Positions 12,554 through 64,000 of a DNA stretch of 64,000 nt are shown in pieces. The DNA comes from Daejeonella oryzae DSM 19973 (lineage in GTDB: Bacteria > Bacteroidota > Bacteroidia > Sphingobacteriales > Sphingobacteriaceae), in NCBI RefSeq assembly GCF_000422945.1, contig NZ_AUHA01000003.1:676940-740939 (forward strand), written 5' to 3'. The translations under genes and the position numbers were made by a program. Under the pieces are notes generated by a model. It had not been told where the DNA came from, made no database searches, and saw nothing but the letters and a program-made list of their open reading frames with translations. The stretch's first letter is position 1, and each line of letters begins with the position of its first letter.

Positions 12554-12799
12554 GTCAAAATGCCCGGTATTTTATTTTACAGGAAATTGCCAATCATATA
12601 TCCTATACTTTCAACTAACCGACAAACATCTAAAAATAATAATTACCTCAGAAACTCAAAAATATTTCCGCTAAATCATTCATTTTAAACTAAAAATGAC
12701 ACTCAAACATTTAGCCATTAAAATGTTACACAGCACCTATAAGTTATGGTAAATATTGGCATTTGCTTTGAAAGCACAGTGTTACTCTACTCTACCACT
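12554..12799. other. Intergenic stretch without recognisable gene
   Basis: AT-rich DNA between the helicase promoter and the small membrane ORF. Short open frames here lack ribosome-binding sites, domains and a coding-like composition. I see no RNA gene or repeat in it. Confidence 0.4.
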
Positions 12800-12931
12800 A
12801 TGACAAAACTTTTCAACTATTCATTACTCAGGAATTATAAATTACCGGCAAGAAAAGGATTATTTAAGTATCTGGATCTTCTATTTGTTGTAGTATTTTT
12901 TCTACTATTAATAACTCAGGTATTGCGATAA
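12800..12931 (+). CDS. Possible 43-residue single-helix membrane protein
   Basis: An ATG at 12800 opens a 43-residue frame with a polar, basic N-terminal half (NYSLLRNYKLPARKGLFKY) and one hydrophobic helix (LDLLFVVVFFLLLITQVL) at the end. Small membrane proteins of this kind occur in Bacteroidota, but there is no convincing ribosome-binding site and no family that I recognise. The frame can be extended upstream to 12746. It is followed by a structured region and a terminator, which gives weak support for a transcript here. Confidence 0.3.
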   Translation: MTKLFNYSLLRNYKLPARKGLFKYLDLLFVVVFFLLLITQVLR

Positions 12932-12955
12932 TTCATTGCCTTAATTTTAAAAGTT

Positions 12956-13042
12956 TAGCATTCGTTTTGAGTCTATATTTATAGGCAGGTTGCGAATGCT
13001 ATTTTAATGTGTAGTTTTTTAAGGGCCCCTTTTGGGGCTTTT
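12956..13042 (+). ncRNA. Structured RNA candidate: 9-bp stem plus intrinsic terminator upstream of pyrG
   Basis: TAGCATTCG at 12956-12964 is perfectly complementary to CGAATGCTA at 12993-13001, enclosing a 28-base loop. Twenty bases further on, GCCCC-TTTT-GGGGC with A/G and T flanks (13021-13042) makes a strong terminator. It could be the 3' end of a small RNA, the end of a transcript of the small ORF at 12800, or a leader attenuator for pyrG. The downstream -7 element at 13131 argues against the last. Confidence 0.4.
13020..13042 (+). terminator. Intrinsic terminator about 190 bases before pyrG
   Basis: AAGGGCCCC-TTTT-GGGGCTTTT forms a nine-pair stem including two G-U pairs, with T residues at the 3' side. 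No large plus-strand gene precedes it. Confidence 0.7.
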
Positions 13043-13130
13043 AAAATTTATATTCCTTTCAATTTCAATTTCATCTTTTCCACAAATCTTTATTTTCTCA
13101 ACAAGAAGGCTCTTTCCGGAAAAATTTCCT

Positions 13131-13138
13131 ACTTTTGA
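13131..13138 (+). promoter_or_regulatory. -7 promoter element (TACTTTTG) for pyrG
   Basis: TACTTTTG is an exact TAnnTTTG match, 92 bases upstream of the pyrG ATG. It would give a leader of about 85 bases that begins after the terminator at 13020-13042. Confidence 0.5.
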
Positions 13139-13230
13139 ATCCCGAACAAACGATGTTTTTTACTGATCAAATCAGGGCTTTATAATCCTGAAAAAAAGTA
13201 AAAAATTCTAATAGAAATCCTTCAAATATC

Positions 13231-14841
13231 ATGACTAAATACATTTTTGTTACGGGCGGCGTTACCTCGTCGTTAGGAAAAGGTATTATTTCCGCTTCCC
13301 TTGCTAAATTACTTCAGGCCCGCGGTTACTCCGTAACTATTCAAAAATTTGACCCTTACATTAACATCGATCCGGGTACTTTAAATCCTTATGAACATGG
13401 TGAATGTTATGTAACTGAAGATGGTGCCGAAACAGATCTGGATCTTGGCCATTACGAACGATTTTTAAATGTTCCTACATCGCAGGCCAACAATATAACC
13501 ACCGGCCGTATTTATCAGAATGTAATTAATAAAGAGCGTGAGGGCGCTTACTTAGGAAAAACCGTTCAGGTTGTTCCGCATATTACAGATGAGATTAAAC
13601 GCAATATGCAAATATTGGGAGAAGGTAGTGAATTTGATATTGTAATTACCGAATTGGGGGGGACCGTAGGCGATATTGAATCATTGCCGTATATCGAAGC
13701 TGTTCGTCAGTTACGCTGGGAACTTGGTTCCGGAAATTCATTGGTTATCCATTTAACCCTTATTCCTTTTCTGGCCGCTGCCGGCGAATTGAAAACAAAG
13801 CCTACTCAGCACTCTGTTAAAATGTTGCTTGAATATGGTATTCAGCCCGATATTTTAGTTTGCCGTACAGAGCATCATCTTTCACAGGAAATCCGCAAAA
13901 AAATAGCATTGTTCTGCAACGTAAACATCAATGCGGTTATTGAATCTATAGATGCCTCTACCATTTATGATGTGCCTTTGTTAATGCTAAAGGAGCAGTT
14001 GGATAAAATTGTATTAACCAAACTTAAACTTCCGCTTAAAAGCGATCCGCTTCTGGATAAATGGAAAAGTTTTTTGGGCAGATTAAAAAATCCTACATCA
14101 GAAGTGAAAATCGGATTGGTTGGAAAATATGTTGAACTGCCCGATGCCTATAAATCTATAACTGAATCTTTTATTCATGCAGGTGCAAAAAATGAATGCA
14201 AGGTTATAGTTAAATGTATTCAATCTGAAAGTATTACATCAGATAATGTGGCTGAAAAATTTAAGGGACTTAACGGAGTTTTGGTTGCCCCCGGATTTGG
14301 AAGCCGCGGAATAGAAGGCAAGATCGAAGCAATTCAGTACGTACGCGAAAACGACATTCCATTTTTTGGAATCTGTCTGGGAATGCAGTGTGCGGTAGTT
14401 GAATTTGCCCGTAATGTACTCGGATTAGAAGATGCTCAAAGTACAGAAATGGACGAAAATGCAAAGAATCCGGTTATATCTATGATGGAAGATCAGAAGA
14501 AAATTAAAAATAAGGGCGGAACTATGCGCTTGGGAGCTTATAGCTGCGATTTAAAAAAGGGAAGTAAAGCGGCCGCCATTTATGGAAAAAGTCATATTTC
14601 AGAACGGCATCGTCACCGTTACGAATTCAACAACAGCTATTTAGAGCAATTTGAAAATGCCGGCATGATGGCATCAGGCATCAATCCTGAGAACAACTTG
14701 GTGGAAATTATTGAACTTAAAAACCATGCGTTTTTTGTTGCTGGCCAATTCCATCCGGAATTAAAATCAACAGTTGATAATCCGCATCCACTTTTTGTTA
14801 ACTTTGTCGCCGCTTCTTTAACCCACTCAAAAAAGAAGTAA
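13231..14841 (+). CDS. pyrG: CTP synthase
   Basis: This 536-residue glutamine-dependent enzyme aminates UTP to CTP, the last step of pyrimidine nucleotide synthesis. The N-terminal synthase half begins [18 protein letters not shown] with the P-loop-like SSLGKG, and holds [10 protein letters not shown] and GGTVGDIES. The C-terminal class I glutamine amidotransferase half has the oxyanion loop PGFGSRG, the nucleophile Cys in GICLGMQ, and the catalytic His and Glu in QFHPELKS. The length is normal. It is 30 bases from yidC and very probably co-transcribed with it, an arrangement seen in other Bacteroidota. Confidence 0.98.
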
Positions 14842-38998: not shown

Positions 38999-40363
38999 TT
39001 AATTTTGTTCTATCCCGCTTGCTTCTATCACTTTGCGGGGGATCGGCATCGCATACCTTTTATCTCCGGGTTCCAGCGTATAAACGGAGCCATTCAGATT
39101 GCGGATAATGGTTTTCTGCCGGTTCGGCTCCAGGTTCAGGCGTTTCAGATCGCTCCAGCGCCTGTTCCGGAAAGCAAGCTCTTTCCTCCGCTCATCCAAA
39201 ATTAAGCTCAGGACTTCGCTGGCATCCGGGGTATTCAGGGGTATAAACGTTCCGGTTTTCCAGCGATTGACAAGGAGCTTGTTCAGACGGTTAAGCGCAG
39301 CGGTCACATTATTGCTGCGGGCATAACATTCGGCTGCGATCAGGTATAATTCATCTGTAGCCAATCCGCTAAAACGGGAGGTGGAACCATTATAGCTGCC
39401 TTTGAAAAAAACCTCTCCGGCACTCTGGCGGTAATAAACGGTGCGGCGTAAATCATCCGGCCGGTACATTTCATACAAATCAGTACTTACCCTGCCAAAG
39501 TTTGGGGTGGTTCCGGATAATCCGGTGATAATGGAATGAAAAATCACTTCTTCATTAAACCGGTTTAAAGGAAAGGCGGCATCGGCATTTAAGGTATTGT
39601 AATCAATCAGCACCGGAGATGCCGAAATGGCTTCTTCGGCATTTCTCAGCGCCAGTTCATACTGCTGCATCTGCAGATACACCCGGGCCAGTAAAGCGGC
39701 GGCGGCCGTCATGCTTACTCTGGTTTTAAACTCAACTGTTTTAGGTAGTAATGTTTTTGATTCTTCCAGATCTGCCAGCACATGATCATAACATTGCCGT
39801 ACAGATGCCCGCGGAAGCTTTTCATTGATATCCGAACTTAATTTTAAAGGCAAGCCGGGCGTATTGTCCGCAGTAGCTTCGCTGTAAGCCAGAGAAAAGG
39901 TTTGAAGCAGGTTGAAATTAGCATGCGCCCTGTGAAATAAGGCAGCCCCCTTCAGTTCTTTCCAGAGTACCTGGCCCGATTCTTCTTTCAGCTTGTCCAG
40001 TCCTTCCAAAATCAGGTTTGAATATAAAATAGCCTTGTAAGAGGTTGCCCAGTCAGTAAGGTCTATGTCGTTAAATACATCCTTATCCCAGATATAGGCA
40101 TTCGCCGATGTTCTTTGCGCCTGCAGAAGCGCAGTCCATTTATCCCCGGGAATAAACACATCATCCACAGCCAGATCAGAAGCCGCAGGATTAAACATAT
40201 TCATGGTTCCATGGTCCTCCAGCATCAGCTGCAGGTACAGCAGTTTATCAGAAGGGACGGCCAGTTTGGCATCCGGCTTTACATCCAGAAATTCTTTGCA
40301 GCTGCTGATAGCGGAGATCAGAAACAGCGCCAGTATCATTTTTATCATTTTCATAATCGTCAT
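38999..40363 (-). CDS. RagB/SusD family outer-membrane lipoprotein
   Basis: This 454-residue surface lipoprotein is the lid of a SusC-type transporter. The signal ends with a lipobox at Cys22 (ISSCKEFLDVKPD, and FLDVKP is the usual SusD start). The TPR-like helices include KAILYSNLILEGLDKL, and the C-terminal LSLILDERRKELAFRNRRWSDLKRL is the diagnostic RagB/SusD signature. It follows susC by eight bases in the same operon. The ligand is unknown; no glycoside hydrolase lies nearby, and the thioredoxin-like partner suggests a peptide or another non-glycan substrate. Confidence 0.94.
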   Translation of the reverse strand: MTIMKMIKMILALFLISAISSCKEFLDVKPDAKLAVPSDKLLYLQLMLEDHGTMNMFNPAASDLAVDDVFIPGDKWTALLQAQRTSANAYIWDKDVFNDIDLTDWATSYKAILYSNLILEGLDKLKEESGQVLWKELKGAALFHRAHANFNLLQTFSLAYSEATADNTPGLPLKLSSDINEKLPRASVRQCYDHVLADLEESKTLLPKTVEFKTRVSMTAAAALLARVYLQMQQYELALRNAEEAISASPVLIDYNTLNADAAFPLNRFNEEVIFHSIITGLSGTTPNFGRVSTDLYEMYRPDDLRRTVYYRQSAGEVFFKGSYNGSTSRFSGLATDELYLIAAECYARSNNVTAALNRLNKLLVNRWKTGTFIPLNTPDASEVLSLILDERRKELAFRNRRWSDLKRLNLEPNRQKTIIRNLNGSVYTLEPGDKRYAMPIPRKVIEASGIEQN

Positions 40364-60588: not shown

Positions 60589-60954
60589 TCAGCCCTTCAT
60601 GTATTTCTGATGCCCTACTATTCTTACTTTATCCTCATCCAGATACATATAGCCCATGTCATAACAGAACCAGTACTCATTGCCCTCTTTGGTTTTAAAC
60701 AGGCTGGTAAAATACTTAAAGTTGAAATGACGTTCTTCCAGAAATTCTTTACGGATCACACTCATTCCGGCAGGATTTAGCGTTTTGAGAATAGTCCGGT
60801 TTCTGCGGAGAACCTGGTTCACCTGCTGTATCACCTTTTCACTTTCTGCCCGGTTCTGATTATTATAACTCGCCCGGCATTGATCCGTACAAAAACGCTT
60901 ATCACTTCTACCTTTTAGGTCATCGTTACAAAACAGGCAGGATCGTTTTTCCAT
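60589..60954 (-). CDS. Zinc-ribbon protein of unknown function
   Basis: This 121-residue protein begins with a zinc ribbon CLFCNDDLKGRSDKRFCTDQC (four Cys), followed by a basic helical part (VLRRNRTILKTLNP) and ends GNEYWFCYDMGYMYLDEDKVRIVGHQ. Similar proteins are frequent in Bacteroidota. A nucleic-acid-binding role is possible but unproven. It lies convergent to the LuxR gene and divergent from the tyrosine recombinase. Confidence 0.65.
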   Translation of the reverse strand: MEKRSCLFCNDDLKGRSDKRFCTDQCRASYNNQNRAESEKVIQQVNQVLRRNRTILKTLNPAGMSVIRKEFLEERHFNFKYFTSLFKTKEGNEYWFCYDMGYMYLDEDKVRIVGHQKYMKG

Positions 60955-61057
60955 AGCTATCTTATTAACCGAATATATCCATTTAAGATACGGATATATT
61001 CGTTTATAAATCGGCTAAAACTCTTTATGTTTTTAGTTTCGGAATAACTAATATATA

Positions 61058-62488
61058 ATGCGATCAGGTATGGCTATTCACGTTTACATACGGCCTTTAA
61101 TTTTGAAAAGCCAGGCGGTGTACAGTTATACTTTTCAAAAGAACCCTCCCCTGTTTAAATGGCTGTTGGGTTTGTCCTGTTTTAAATATGACCGACCAGG
61201 AAAAATACTCTACACCGAAGCCAAAGAAGAAATACTTGATTATTTAGAAATCGCTTCCGGAGGCAAATTGCTGATCAACAAAAACAATCTTTACCGCGAT
61301 TGTGTCATTGAGGCGCAAAAGCAGAATTTAAATGGACTTTCCCGGGTAGAAATTCCGAAGTATCGCTTTGAAGCCAGAATGACAATTAAGTATGCAGTGG
61401 TGGAAAATTCAAATTGTTTTTTGCTTACTACTGACCGGGTTAACAGATGTAAAGAAATTTTAGAACCTTTAGAATTTATTTATTTTAATCGTAAACTTTC
61501 GGCCTTTCTGATGCCTATGCGGGAAGTAAATCTATTAAAGTTATTGACGGTGGTAAAGGGCAAAGTAGTGCTTTCGCTTCAGCAGCATGTAAAACTTAAA
61601 AGCCTCTTCCTACAATCATATATTTGGAATCAAACGTATAATGTGGATGTAGTGGTACCGGAGGCTTATCTGAAACACTTAAAGTCCAAAAACTACAGCC
61701 CAAACACGATTCAAAACTATTACGCATCATTTTTCACTTACCTGTATTATTGCAAAACAATCGCAGTTAATGCCGAAGACCTTAGTCCGGAACGGGTAAA
61801 CGATATTGTTCTGAAGATAGCCAGCAATAATAGTCATTGCAGCAGCAGCACGCATATGATGATTAATGCGGTGTTGTATTTTTATAAAAATGTGCTGAAT
61901 AAACCGGAATATACCAATCAGTTACACCGCCCTCACAAAGAAAAAGTGCTACCTAAGGTAATTGCCAAAGAAGATATCGAAAAAATTCTAAACAGCTGCA
62001 GCAATATCAAGCATAAAACGATGCTCAGCCTGGTATATGCCTGCGGCCTGAGAGCCGGTGAACTTATTAATTTAAAAGTTTGCGATATAGACAGCAAACG
62101 AATGATTATTCTAATTGCAAAAGCCAAAGGTTATAAAGACCGCCGGGTGATGCTATCTGAAAAATTGCTTGAAAAATTAAAAGAATATTATAAAGCATAT
62201 AAGCCCCGCACCTACCTGTTTGAAGGACAATACCAGGATCAGTATTCGGTAAGTTCATTGAGGCAGGTGCTTGCTGAAGCCTGCAATAAGGCAGGTTACA
62301 AGCAAAAAGCGACACTGCACTGGTTAAGGCATTCCTTTGCCACCCATTTACTGGAAGCCGGAACAGACATCCGTTATATTCAGCAACTGCTCGGGCACAG
62401 CAGTACCAAAACCACTGAAATTTATACCTATGTGAGCACAAAACACATCAGCAAAATAAAAAGTCCGCTGGATAGTTTAAACATTTGA
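61058..62488 (+). CDS. Tyrosine recombinase (Xer-like, with N-terminal extension) next to a cassette array
   Basis: This is a 476-residue site-specific recombinase. Residues about 205-290 form the SAM-like core-binding domain (YLKHLKSKNYSPNTIQNYYASFFTYL). The catalytic domain has R332 (GLRAGELINL), the Lys in AKGYKDRRVML, H421-x-x-R424, H447 and the nucleophile Y456. It ends IKSPLDSLNI. The first 200 residues are a separate unrecognised region. The insertion that marks integron integrases between the Lys and H-x-x-R is missing. The gene lies 65 bases upstream of the first cassette boundary, in the same direction as the cassettes. Confidence 0.92.
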   Translation: MRSGMAIHVYIRPLILKSQAVYSYTFQKNPPLFKWLLGLSCFKYDRPGKILYTEAKEEILDYLEIASGGKLLINKNNLYRDCVIEAQKQNLNGLSRVEIPKYRFEARMTIKYAVVENSNCFLLTTDRVNRCKEILEPLEFIYFNRKLSAFLMPMREVNLLKLLTVVKGKVVLSLQQHVKLKSLFLQSYIWNQTYNVDVVVPEAYLKHLKSKNYSPNTIQNYYASFFTYLYYCKTIAVNAEDLSPERVNDIVLKIASNNSHCSSSTHMMINAVLYFYKNVLNKPEYTNQLHRPHKEKVLPKVIAKEDIEKILNSCSNIKHKTMLSLVYACGLRAGELINLKVCDIDSKRMIILIAKAKGYKDRRVMLSEKLLEKLKEYYKAYKPRTYLFEGQYQDQYSVSSLRQVLAEACNKAGYKQKATLHWLRHSFATHLLEAGTDIRYIQQLLGHSSTKTTEIYTYVSTKHISKIKSPLDSLNI

Positions 62489-62565
62489 AATAATCTGTAT
62501 GTTGGCTCCACTTATAGTAAATATATATGCAATAGACAGCGTATATCTACTAGTTATGTGTAACC
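62489..62565 (+). other. Possible primary recombination (attI-like) site
   Basis: The 65 bases between the recombinase stop and GTTATGTGTAACC at 62553-62565 form the entrance to the array. By analogy with integrons the crossover would lie between G and TT at 62553/62554. No further box structure was recognised in it. Confidence 0.35.
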
Positions 62566-63402
62566 TTATGACGACACTTCGAAACATATTGACCATACTG
62601 ACAATTGGAACAACTTTTCAACTCTTCGGACAGAGTGTTGGAAAGGATACGACTTTTATTTTTAAGGACACGGTTGACGGAGAACTTCAAACTATTTTTA
62701 TTGACAACAATAAGGACAGCAAATTTTACGACCACATATCTAACTTTAATTTCCAGCATTTCGACAAAGACAGTTATAAATATTCGACTGACTTTTTCAA
62801 AGAGCAAAAACTGACTTTAACTAAATCAAAGCCATTAATTCCTTGGACAAAGTGGGTTACACTTAAACAATACAATGGACAACTTTATGCTTATCACCCT
62901 TGCGACTTTTTATTTCATTTTCGACAATCAGTAAATGACACAACATTTATTGACTGGACTGGTGAAGGTCCTGTTGCAAACAAAATTATCGAGCAGAAGA
63001 AAATTGACAACAAGACGTATGAGTTTAAGTTGACCGGTATTTACGACCACGACCGAAAAATCATAATTTACATAATTGACTTTAAAAAAGGAATAGCAGT
63101 TTTTGAGCAAATTACTAACGGGATAGACAAGAATTATTACTTGATGATAGCAGCAGACAAAATAAAAAGTGTTCCAATTATTGTAAATCATTGCCCGACT
63201 CAAAAGCAAACAGAATTACAATTTGACGAGCCTGACTTTAAAACTTTATTGACAACGAAATGACAAGAAAGGCTACACATAACACGGGTTTTGCGTCAGG
63301 CGGGCTGATGTGCAAAGCTTAACGGTAATTTTTTATTTAAGCTTTTGTAATAAAATCGACTTTTGTGCTTCGATTTCCCGCCCGAACGCAAAGCCCGAAT
63401 CG
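62554..63402 (+). mobile_element. Integron-like gene cassette 1
   Basis: This 849-bp unit starts with TTATGTGTAACC (after G62553) and ends with its own recombination site. The box GGCTACACATAAC at 63271-63283 is the reverse complement, with one mismatch in 13, of GTTATGTGTAACC at its start; in a circularised cassette these would be the two paired boxes of one attC site. One short leader, one promoterless gene and one stem-loop make the unit. The next unit begins at the matching GTTATG at 63402. Confidence 0.6.
62568..63263 (+). CDS. Exported hypothetical protein (cassette 1 gene)
   Basis: This 231-residue protein has a signal peptide (TTLRNILTILTIGTTFQLFGQ) and a soluble mature part with many aromatic and acidic residues (WTKWVTLKQYNGQLYAYHPCDF, then IYDHDRKIIIYIIDFKKG). 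No domain is recognised. The ATG at 62568 is the third in the frame and puts the signal peptide first; it lies only three bases after the cassette boundary GTTATGTGTAACC, as in integron cassettes. The base composition is more AT-rich than that of the recombinase gene. Confidence 0.65.
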   Translation: MTTLRNILTILTIGTTFQLFGQSVGKDTTFIFKDTVDGELQTIFIDNNKDSKFYDHISNFNFQHFDKDSYKYSTDFFKEQKLTLTKSKPLIPWTKWVTLKQYNGQLYAYHPCDFLFHFRQSVNDTTFIDWTGEGPVANKIIEQKKIDNKTYEFKLTGIYDHDRKIIIYIIDFKKGIAVFEQITNGIDKNYYLMIAADKIKSVPIIVNHCPTQKQTELQFDEPDFKTLLTTK

Positions 63403-63414
63403 TTATGCCCAACC
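63271..63414 (+). repeat. attC-like stem-loop recombination site
   Basis: The left arm 63278-63304 (CATAAC, CGGG, TTTTGCGT, GGCGGG) pairs with the right arm 63377-63407 (CCCGCC, AACGCAAA, CCCG, GTTATG), with small bulges as in attC sites. The terminal loop contains a second stem, AGCTTAA / TTAAGCT, and CTTTTGTAATAAAATCGACT. The right end GTTATGCCCAACC has the same layout as the left end of cassette 1 (GTTATG-three bases-AACC). Confidence 0.65.
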
Positions 63415-63421
63415 ATAAAAC

Positions 63422-64000
63422 ATGCAACAATTCATAAGACTAAATCTTAAGAAATTTAAATACATTTTTCTAATACCTGCTGGTGTTATGACTGCTTTCA
63501 TTTGGTTTCTATTCCTTTTTGTAGACTCATCAAAGACTTATACTTTATCAGAAAAAATATTTATACCACCGACGATGGGATTGTATGTTGGTTTTATCAT
63601 CCTGACTTTGGCTTTTGTCTCTGGCTATTACACCTTTTACAAAAACAGAAAGACTTTAAATAAGTACCCTTATATTGAATTGGAAGCGCAACTTGGCTTT
63701 AAAAAACAGTTTTTTGGAAAGAATAATATATGGCGTTTCACTGAAGAAATTTTGGTAGGTCAACAGGAAGGCTTTCCAATAGAAATACATTCTATAAACG
63801 AAAATGGTAAAAAGAAAATTGGAGTTACCGTACTAACTGAAATAAATGAGTTAGACGACATGACCTACAAGAAAACTTTTGAATACTTTGAAAAGGAAGA
63901 TATATATTTTGGAGTAGGAGGTTCATCAAAAACTTTTGAACTTGAGAAAGGTAATACAGGAAATCTCGAACAGATTAAAACGGAATTAACAACGTTTATT
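63422..64000 (+). CDS. Two-helix membrane protein (cassette 2 gene, cut by window end)
   Basis: A 193-codon open frame runs to the end of the window without a stop. It starts MQQFIRLNLKKFKYIF with two membrane helices near residues 18-36 (LIPAGVMTAFIWFLFLFV) and 52-72 (GLYVGFIILTLAFVSGYYTFY), followed by a soluble region (WRFTEEILVGQQEGFPIEIH). No family is recognised. The ATG lies seven bases after the boundary GTTATGCCCAACC, again with almost no leader, as for cassette 1. If the cassette rule holds, its own site downstream should contain a box complementary to that boundary. Confidence 0.7.
   Translation, partial: MQQFIRLNLKKFKYIFLIPAGVMTAFIWFLFLFVDSSKTYTLSEKIFIPPTMGLYVGFIILTLAFVSGYYTFYKNRKTLNKYPYIELEAQLGFKKQFFGKNNIWRFTEEILVGQQEGFPIEIHSINENGKKKIGVTVLTEINELDDMTYKKTFEYFEKEDIYFGVGGSSKTFELEKGNTGNLEQIKTELTTFI

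Follow-up and report, generated by a model that had tools for sequence, protein, structure and literature searches.

Do the gene units at the right-hand end of a 64,000-nucleotide stretch of the Daejeonella oryzae DSM 19973 genome (the window; contig NZ_AUHA01000003.1, positions 676,940–740,939) behave as integron cassettes, and if so, which enzyme moves them? An earlier note, made from the letters alone, had read two such units as following integron-cassette logic in a Bacteroidota chromosome, and that reading is now supported by 20 cassettes in this genome and 59 cassettes at 18 related loci. The locus is very probably an integron-like platform in the chromosome, and an Xer/XerA-like tyrosine recombinase without an I2 domain is likely to capture and release its cassettes. 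It is ordered as recombinase gene, attI-like site and co-oriented cassettes, each bounded by G|TT and ending in a hairpin of ∼130 b. This is an integron-like variant: its logic is that of integrons, but the enzyme subclass and the site code differ. Below, C2 denotes the contig that carries the window, and C7, C5 and C3 other contigs of the same genome (G000); other genomes and loci carry G and L numbers.

Two cassette units at the end of the window

The first unit has its boundary, G|TTATGTGTAACC, at 62553. Its start, GTTATGTGTAACC at 62553, is the reverse complement of the box GGCTACACATAAC at its end (63271–63283) in 12 of 13 positions, as first noticed in the earlier note; elsewhere in the 64 kb a start/box match of at least 11 of 13 occurs at two places only, 62855 (+) and 24333 (−). 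The box is followed by a hairpin whose right end, GTTATGCCCAACC at 63402, forms the opening of unit 2, also as described earlier. This stem-loop (63270–63415) folds with −31.3 kcal/mol, against −18.3 ± 2.9 in 200 shuffles, none of which was as good. It scores 89.9 bits with our covariance model R1 (the site itself being part of the model-building set) and is one of the 20 aligned sequences with a covarying stem described below. Searches of Pfam, NCBIfam and PADLOC gave no match for the open reading frame (ORF) of this first cassette.

Unit 2, here cassette X, is interrupted by the end of the window, which is also the end of C2. The last 140 bases of C2 are identical to the first 140 of C7, and from this overlap the two contigs are probably physically joined. 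The end box predicted for unit 2 is indeed present at C7:186–198 with a 12/13 match, the sole place on the + strand of C7 that reaches 11/13 against the prediction, and the hairpin that follows it closes in GTT at C7:315. C7 itself terminates with the first 361 b of X, so that X is present at least twice, and this is probably why the assembly breaks after C2. The expectation that both genes begin within ten bases of their boundary stood in part: gene 1 starts 3 or 15 bases from it, depending on which of two in-frame ATGs is used, and gene 2 starts too far in, at 20 bases. Elsewhere in the window, a simple pattern scan returned one isolated GTAAC...GTTATG pair at 13332–13419.

Cassettes obey an own-start rule

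C7 holds 19 hairpin sites, 118–122 b long from AAC to GTT, which, from one copy of X to the other, delimit 18 cassettes. The main ORFs all lie on one strand, mostly one per cassette; a 1.7 kb unit (12621–14346) has two, on that same strand. With unit 1 and X these make up the own-genome set of 20 cassettes. One cassette occurs twice in the array (L005 5329–5903 and 8915–9489, 98% over 300 b), and its product is 42% like that of a cassette in the congener G122 (L172 11432–11797).

Across the 20 cassettes, 6.6 of the 7 variable positions in the end box agree with the cassette's own start, against 3.1 of 7 with the next start (a result reached by 0/100,000 permutations); the own box was the best-fitting one, ties allowed, in 19. 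The aligned hairpin stems carry compensatory changes at 13 of 15 predicted pairs. The covariance model built from these 20 sites matches the genome 50 times at E ≤ 0.01; the matches form about a dozen clusters and include the source sites by construction.

The same rule is found in relatives, with a mean fit of 6.36/7 to the own start against 3.14/7 to the next (59 cassettes, 18 loci). This test admitted 93 of 118 sites, the rest being mostly single-site loci and weak matches, and excluded three sites without AAC or GTT and six pairs over 2,500 b. By position, agreement between start and end is 0.90–1.00 at positions 1–9, 0.69 at 10, 0.00 at 11, 0.83–0.88 at 12–15 and 0.02 at 16, which defines a 15 nt outer arm with a fixed mismatch at position 11. 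In this genome that position is A at 20 of 20 starts and G in 19 of 20 complemented boxes, giving a G·T pair on the bottom strand and A·C on the top.

Extrahelical bases of the IntI type are mostly absent from the stem. In the first 18 stem pairs, 69 of 80 sites (13/17 own, 56/63 from relatives) have no one-sided bulge of 1–2 nt, compared with a mean of 1.8 bulges over ten strand readings from five IntI candidate sites located by pattern, one of the ten having none. The central spacer is asymmetric, being longer on the R′ side in 79 of 80 sites (17/17 own, 62/63 from relatives). These counts derive from 65 relatives' sites with both boxes, the higher-scoring part of the lists, and omit sites with fewer than 8 stem pairs (two of the relatives' and 3/20 own). 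The folding energy of the bottom strand is ahead of that of the top in 19 of 20 sites. When the cassette is drawn as a circle, the bottom strand folds with −27.6 kcal/mol against −19.7 in the array, and the circle is the better form in all 20.

The adjacent recombinase lacks the IntI-specific insertion

The recombinase gene is directed toward the array, and its stop lies 65 b ahead of the first cassette. The enzyme is not an IntI-type integrase. It is without the ∼41-residue IntI-specific insertion that lies around patch III and holds I2: TIGR02249 aligns at model positions 7–181 and 241–315 of 315, leaving 182–240 unmatched, and the IntI4 structure 2a3v aligns in two pieces. The corresponding motif spacing is 65 aa, against 107 in 15/15 IntI proteins, and 65–66 aa throughout the family's 43 rows (the 40 best relatives, the window's own enzyme and two more). 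No IntI over the family cut-off occurs in the own genome, which is 99.5% complete.

The enzyme also stands apart from XerC and XerD. It misses the XerD and XerC family cut-offs (174.8 of 329.6 and 164.6 of 335.15 bits, respectively), and two trees, which contained no XerA rows, group it with neither the XerC nor the XerD rows; separate XerC-like and XerD-like genes are present in the genome. Its core gives its highest Z with Xer enzymes. An added N-terminal region of ∼170 aa forms a duplicated α/β domain in the predicted model, and a profile of this domain is found in 34 of 40 relatives.

Coordinates of the platform features within the window
Feature	Position	Strand	Remarks
Conserved platform block	60932..62556	+	Recombinase gene and attI-like site; right edge at the putative GTT crossover triplet
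Tyrosine recombinase, 476 aa	61058..62488	+	Possible start at M5 (61070); core 202–466; Pfam PF00589 2.9e-39
attI-like insertion site	62489..62555	+	Near-identical C5 copy diverging at GTT
Cassette 1	62554..63402	+	ORF from 62556 or 62568 to 63263; start/end box 12/13
attC-like hairpin of cassette 1	63271..63414	+	R″ 63277–63283, R′ 63402–63408; z −4.5
Cassette 2 (X)	63403..64000	+	ORF from 63422; cut at contig end; taken to go on at C7:1–315

An attI-like site and a conserved platform

The region between recombinase and cassettes has the character of an attI site, lying beside the recombinase gene with a GTT insertion point. The 117 b ahead of cassette 1 recur at C5:69989–70104, 98% identical until GTT, with unrelated sequence beyond; the crossover thus probably falls between G62553 and T62554. 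The C5 copy belongs to a second platform (G000:C5:62373–70277, part in L015), comprising a recombinase stub with 89% identity over the last 73 residues and one in-frame stop, the attI copy and a short row of sites; the first cassette there obeys the box rule (6/7) and the second does not (3/7). Two more attI-like copies, C2:116178–116290 (83%) and C3:547299–547342 (93% of the last 44 b), precede attC clusters (L173, L174). No recombinase match was found at these two platforms, and one recombinase may serve several platforms in trans. Further attC clusters without a nearby recombinase match occur in the genome and may be true orphans.

When window positions 40001–62600 were compared at E ≤ 1e-5 with a related 20 kb locus (L220, seemingly one record with L017, both contigs being 82,849 b long), the platform block was the sole block in common, at 78.6% over 1629 columns. 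In relatives, the first cassette start was located by the own-box rule alone; it lies 20–123 b past the recombinase stop in 21 of 26 loci, and at −16, 229, 276, 406 and 899 b in the other five (L112, L115, L135, L136 and L206).

Recombinase and hairpins occur together across the phylum

We examined the loci of 40 relatives, the top-scoring 40 recombinase matches after those of the own genome. At least one attC match is present at 34 of them. Of 107 matches in all, 106 lie downstream on the recombinase strand, one lies upstream on the same strand and none is on the opposite strand. Five of the six loci without attC have 103–476 b of contig downstream, and the sixth 1,783 b. Twenty control windows gave two attC matches, both in one window of G198, and the 15 true IntI loci contain no attC-like hairpins of the type found with this recombinase. 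Ten further loci of closer relatives behave alike: six (L220, L222, L224, L225, L226 and L227) have 21 matches, every one downstream on the recombinase strand, and the four without a match (L221, L223, L228 and L229) have about 0.1–1.3 kb of contig past the recombinase. Among plasmids, that of Chryseobacterium sp. SNU WT5 (L206) has four full attC matches on the downstream side of the recombinase; no attC match at E ≤ 1 was found on L207 and L210, two further enzyme-bearing plasmids from Bacteroidota.

Across 395 genomes sampled from the phylum, recombinase and attC are found together in 97, the recombinase alone in 17, attC alone in 71 and neither in 210 (odds ratio 16.9, p 1e-28). The same attC calls are, if anything, negatively associated with IntI, with both present in 37 genomes, IntI only in 71, attC only in 131 and neither in 156 (odds ratio 0.62, p 0.05). 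Thresholds were E ≤ 1e-60 for the recombinase and E ≤ 1e-50 for IntI (108 genomes), and attC was scored on 8 candidates per genome with strict filters. Recombinase matches at this threshold thus occur in 114 genomes, the absence of the insertion having been checked in 43 proteins only.

A model for capture and release

We infer recombination of these cassettes from sequence; the steps would be as follows. Since the two ends of a cassette meet when it is a free circle, such a circle would present the whole hairpin on its bottom strand. Cutting at the GTT/AAC triplet, the recombinase would join this hairpin to attI or to a further attC. The strand could be chosen by the one-sided central spacer together with the position-11 pair, which would take the place of the extrahelical bases recognised by IntI via I2. 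In Vibrio cholerae repeat (VCR) sites an extrahelical G sets the strand, and it has been suggested that without extrahelical bases the spacer would still influence it (PMC2727003). Insertion would hand R′ to the neighbour and deprive the site of most of its outer arm, a change that would favour capture over loss. A candidate reader of the long arm, at a guess, is the added N-terminal domain.

A more ambitious claim would make this an integron of a second kind, common among Bacteroidota, which uses folded single-stranded attC sites with neither I2 nor extrahelical bases, sets the strand by the spacer and the bottom-strand G·T in the 15 nt arm, has the folded site read by a HARP-like N-terminal domain, is sister to IntI as a living pre-I2 state, and was the source platform of tet(X) mobilisation. 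Taken as a whole, we put this slightly short of even chances.

Several observations weigh against the integron-like platform or parts of the model. No movement event has been observed, cassette mobility being deduced, and the link from C2 to C7 depends on an overlap within a cassette that is present twice. Of 114 recombinase genomes, 17 are without an attC match, and of 168 attC genomes, 57 lack both enzymes at the thresholds used; the congener G122 has a nine-hit attC array and no recombinase match at E ≤ 1e-60. That array (L172; G122:C92:309–317 kb) is an orphan. The relation between hairpin and own start, on which the earlier note relied, carries over outside the main array to six of nine neighbouring pairs (6 or 7 of 7) and is weaker in three (5, 4 and 3); some sites there are unreadable, so that not every pair need be a true cassette. 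A one-sided bulge is present at 11 of 80 sites, and in VCR sites that have extrahelical bases, strand choice is not made by the spacer (PMC2727003). Finally, kinship of the N-terminal domain is weak, with DUF5710 on 9/41 proteins at E up to 1, a HARP match on one protein and only low Z to XPB chains.

Alternative explanations

The array could belong to an ordinary IntI integron whose classical integrase is lost or elsewhere (a cluster of attC sites lacking integron integrases, CALIN), with the adjacent recombinase a bystander. The attC clusters without a nearby recombinase, in this genome and in G122, would fit this, as would the presence of IntI over the cut-off in 105 of the 395 genomes; within the own class, however, G037 alone is among these, and the own genome is not. 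With, in addition, an attC–IntI odds ratio below one, no such sites at 15 IntI loci, and a constant position and strand of the sites with respect to the I2-less enzyme across 40 loci, we regard this as very unlikely. Under an IntI-based definition the array would still count as a CALIN, the neighbouring enzyme not being IntI. It is also unlikely, on balance, that the system is integron-like but that its recombinase uses ordinary double-stranded sites, the hairpin being a terminator or relic. In favour of this, the enzyme has no I2, the domain credited with single-strand recombination (PMC7790495), and its core gives the highest Z with Xer enzymes. A folded-strand substrate, however, predicts the compensatory stem changes, the spacer asymmetry and the bottom-strand advantage that the sites display, and a terminator has no reason to pair with the start of its own gene.

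Resemblance of the core to Xer proteins, and reports of Xer-driven modules on Acinetobacter plasmids (PMC7530245), also bring to mind Xer/dif-type modules moved by the host XerCD. The sites here are ∼130 b hairpins, however, against the 28-bp sites of that report, and the enzyme falls outside the XerC and XerD rows in a genome with XerC-like and XerD-like genes of its own, which makes this explanation highly improbable. We can give almost no credence to interspersed intergenic repeats without a role in recombination. Matches scattered over about a dozen places in the genome and the three poorly fitting pairs are what such repeats would produce, but they would not produce complementarity to the own start in 20 and again in 59 cassettes, attI copies that diverge at GTT, or a fixed downstream position on the same strand. 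An integron-like platform run by the adjacent I2-less recombinase remains the explanation that we favour.

Comparison with known systems

Integron-detection tools rely on IntI models, and Bacteroidota promoters differ from the sigma-70 consensus. The platform shares with IntI integrons a recombinase beside the insertion site, an array of small cassettes, and hairpin attC sites with a GTT/AAC core, an own-start box and an asymmetric central spacer (PMC9668308, PMC2727003). Unlike those systems, it has an enzyme without the IntI-specific insertion and, in most family members, with an added N-terminal domain, and sites with a 15 nt outer arm, a fixed position-11 mismatch and mostly no extrahelical bases. 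Orientation likens it to the Treponema integrons, where intI, as the enzymes are reported, is transcribed toward attI along the cassette direction (PMC3607928). A complete Bacteroidetes integron has been reported in Salinibacter ruber (PMC9024848); it is of the same phylum and was called complete by a detection tool. Linkage to an attI-like site and a cassette array distinguishes the enzyme from XerA, XerC and XerD, as does its separate placement in the trees from XerC and XerD. A search of full-text literature, excluding preprints and most subscription journals, found no description of I2-less integrons.

A possible link to tet(X)

Two Acinetobacter plasmids, L208 (NZ_CP041297.1) and L209 (NZ_CP104735.1), carry a C-terminal fragment of the recombinase family directly before tet(X3), with 50.5% identity to residues 264–471 of the window's enzyme. 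By eye, an attI-like junction lies ahead of tet(X3) in both, and the gene's boundaries fit the family box pattern at 8 of 11 positions, the end box having been picked by eye; a fit of 8/11 was reached by 8 of 4,680 GTT places scanned. The hairpin after tet(X3) is incomplete: the model matches once in L209, weakly and in part (E 0.12), and not at all in L208. An ‘xerD’ beside some tet(X) genes has been noted, its reason left open, and in the Empedobacter case xerD is directed the opposite way, a misfit with the arrangement here (PMC7473080). An I2-less integron as the source of ‘xerD-tet(X)’ is suggestive only.

Significance

Cassette capture is reported to require I2, the deletion of which causes complete loss of IntI1 function (PMC7790495), and how I2 arose has been called a chicken-egg paradox (PMC4792948). 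That question would become testable with a natural family in which attC-like hairpins go together with an I2-less enzyme; such a family also offers a possible reason for the ‘xerD’ adjoining some tet(X) genes. Given enzyme matches in 114 of the 395 genomes, a large gene-exchange system may have been overlooked. Bacteroidota thus likely possess a second gene-capture system besides IntI integrons, which, if true, would change the picture of integron origins.
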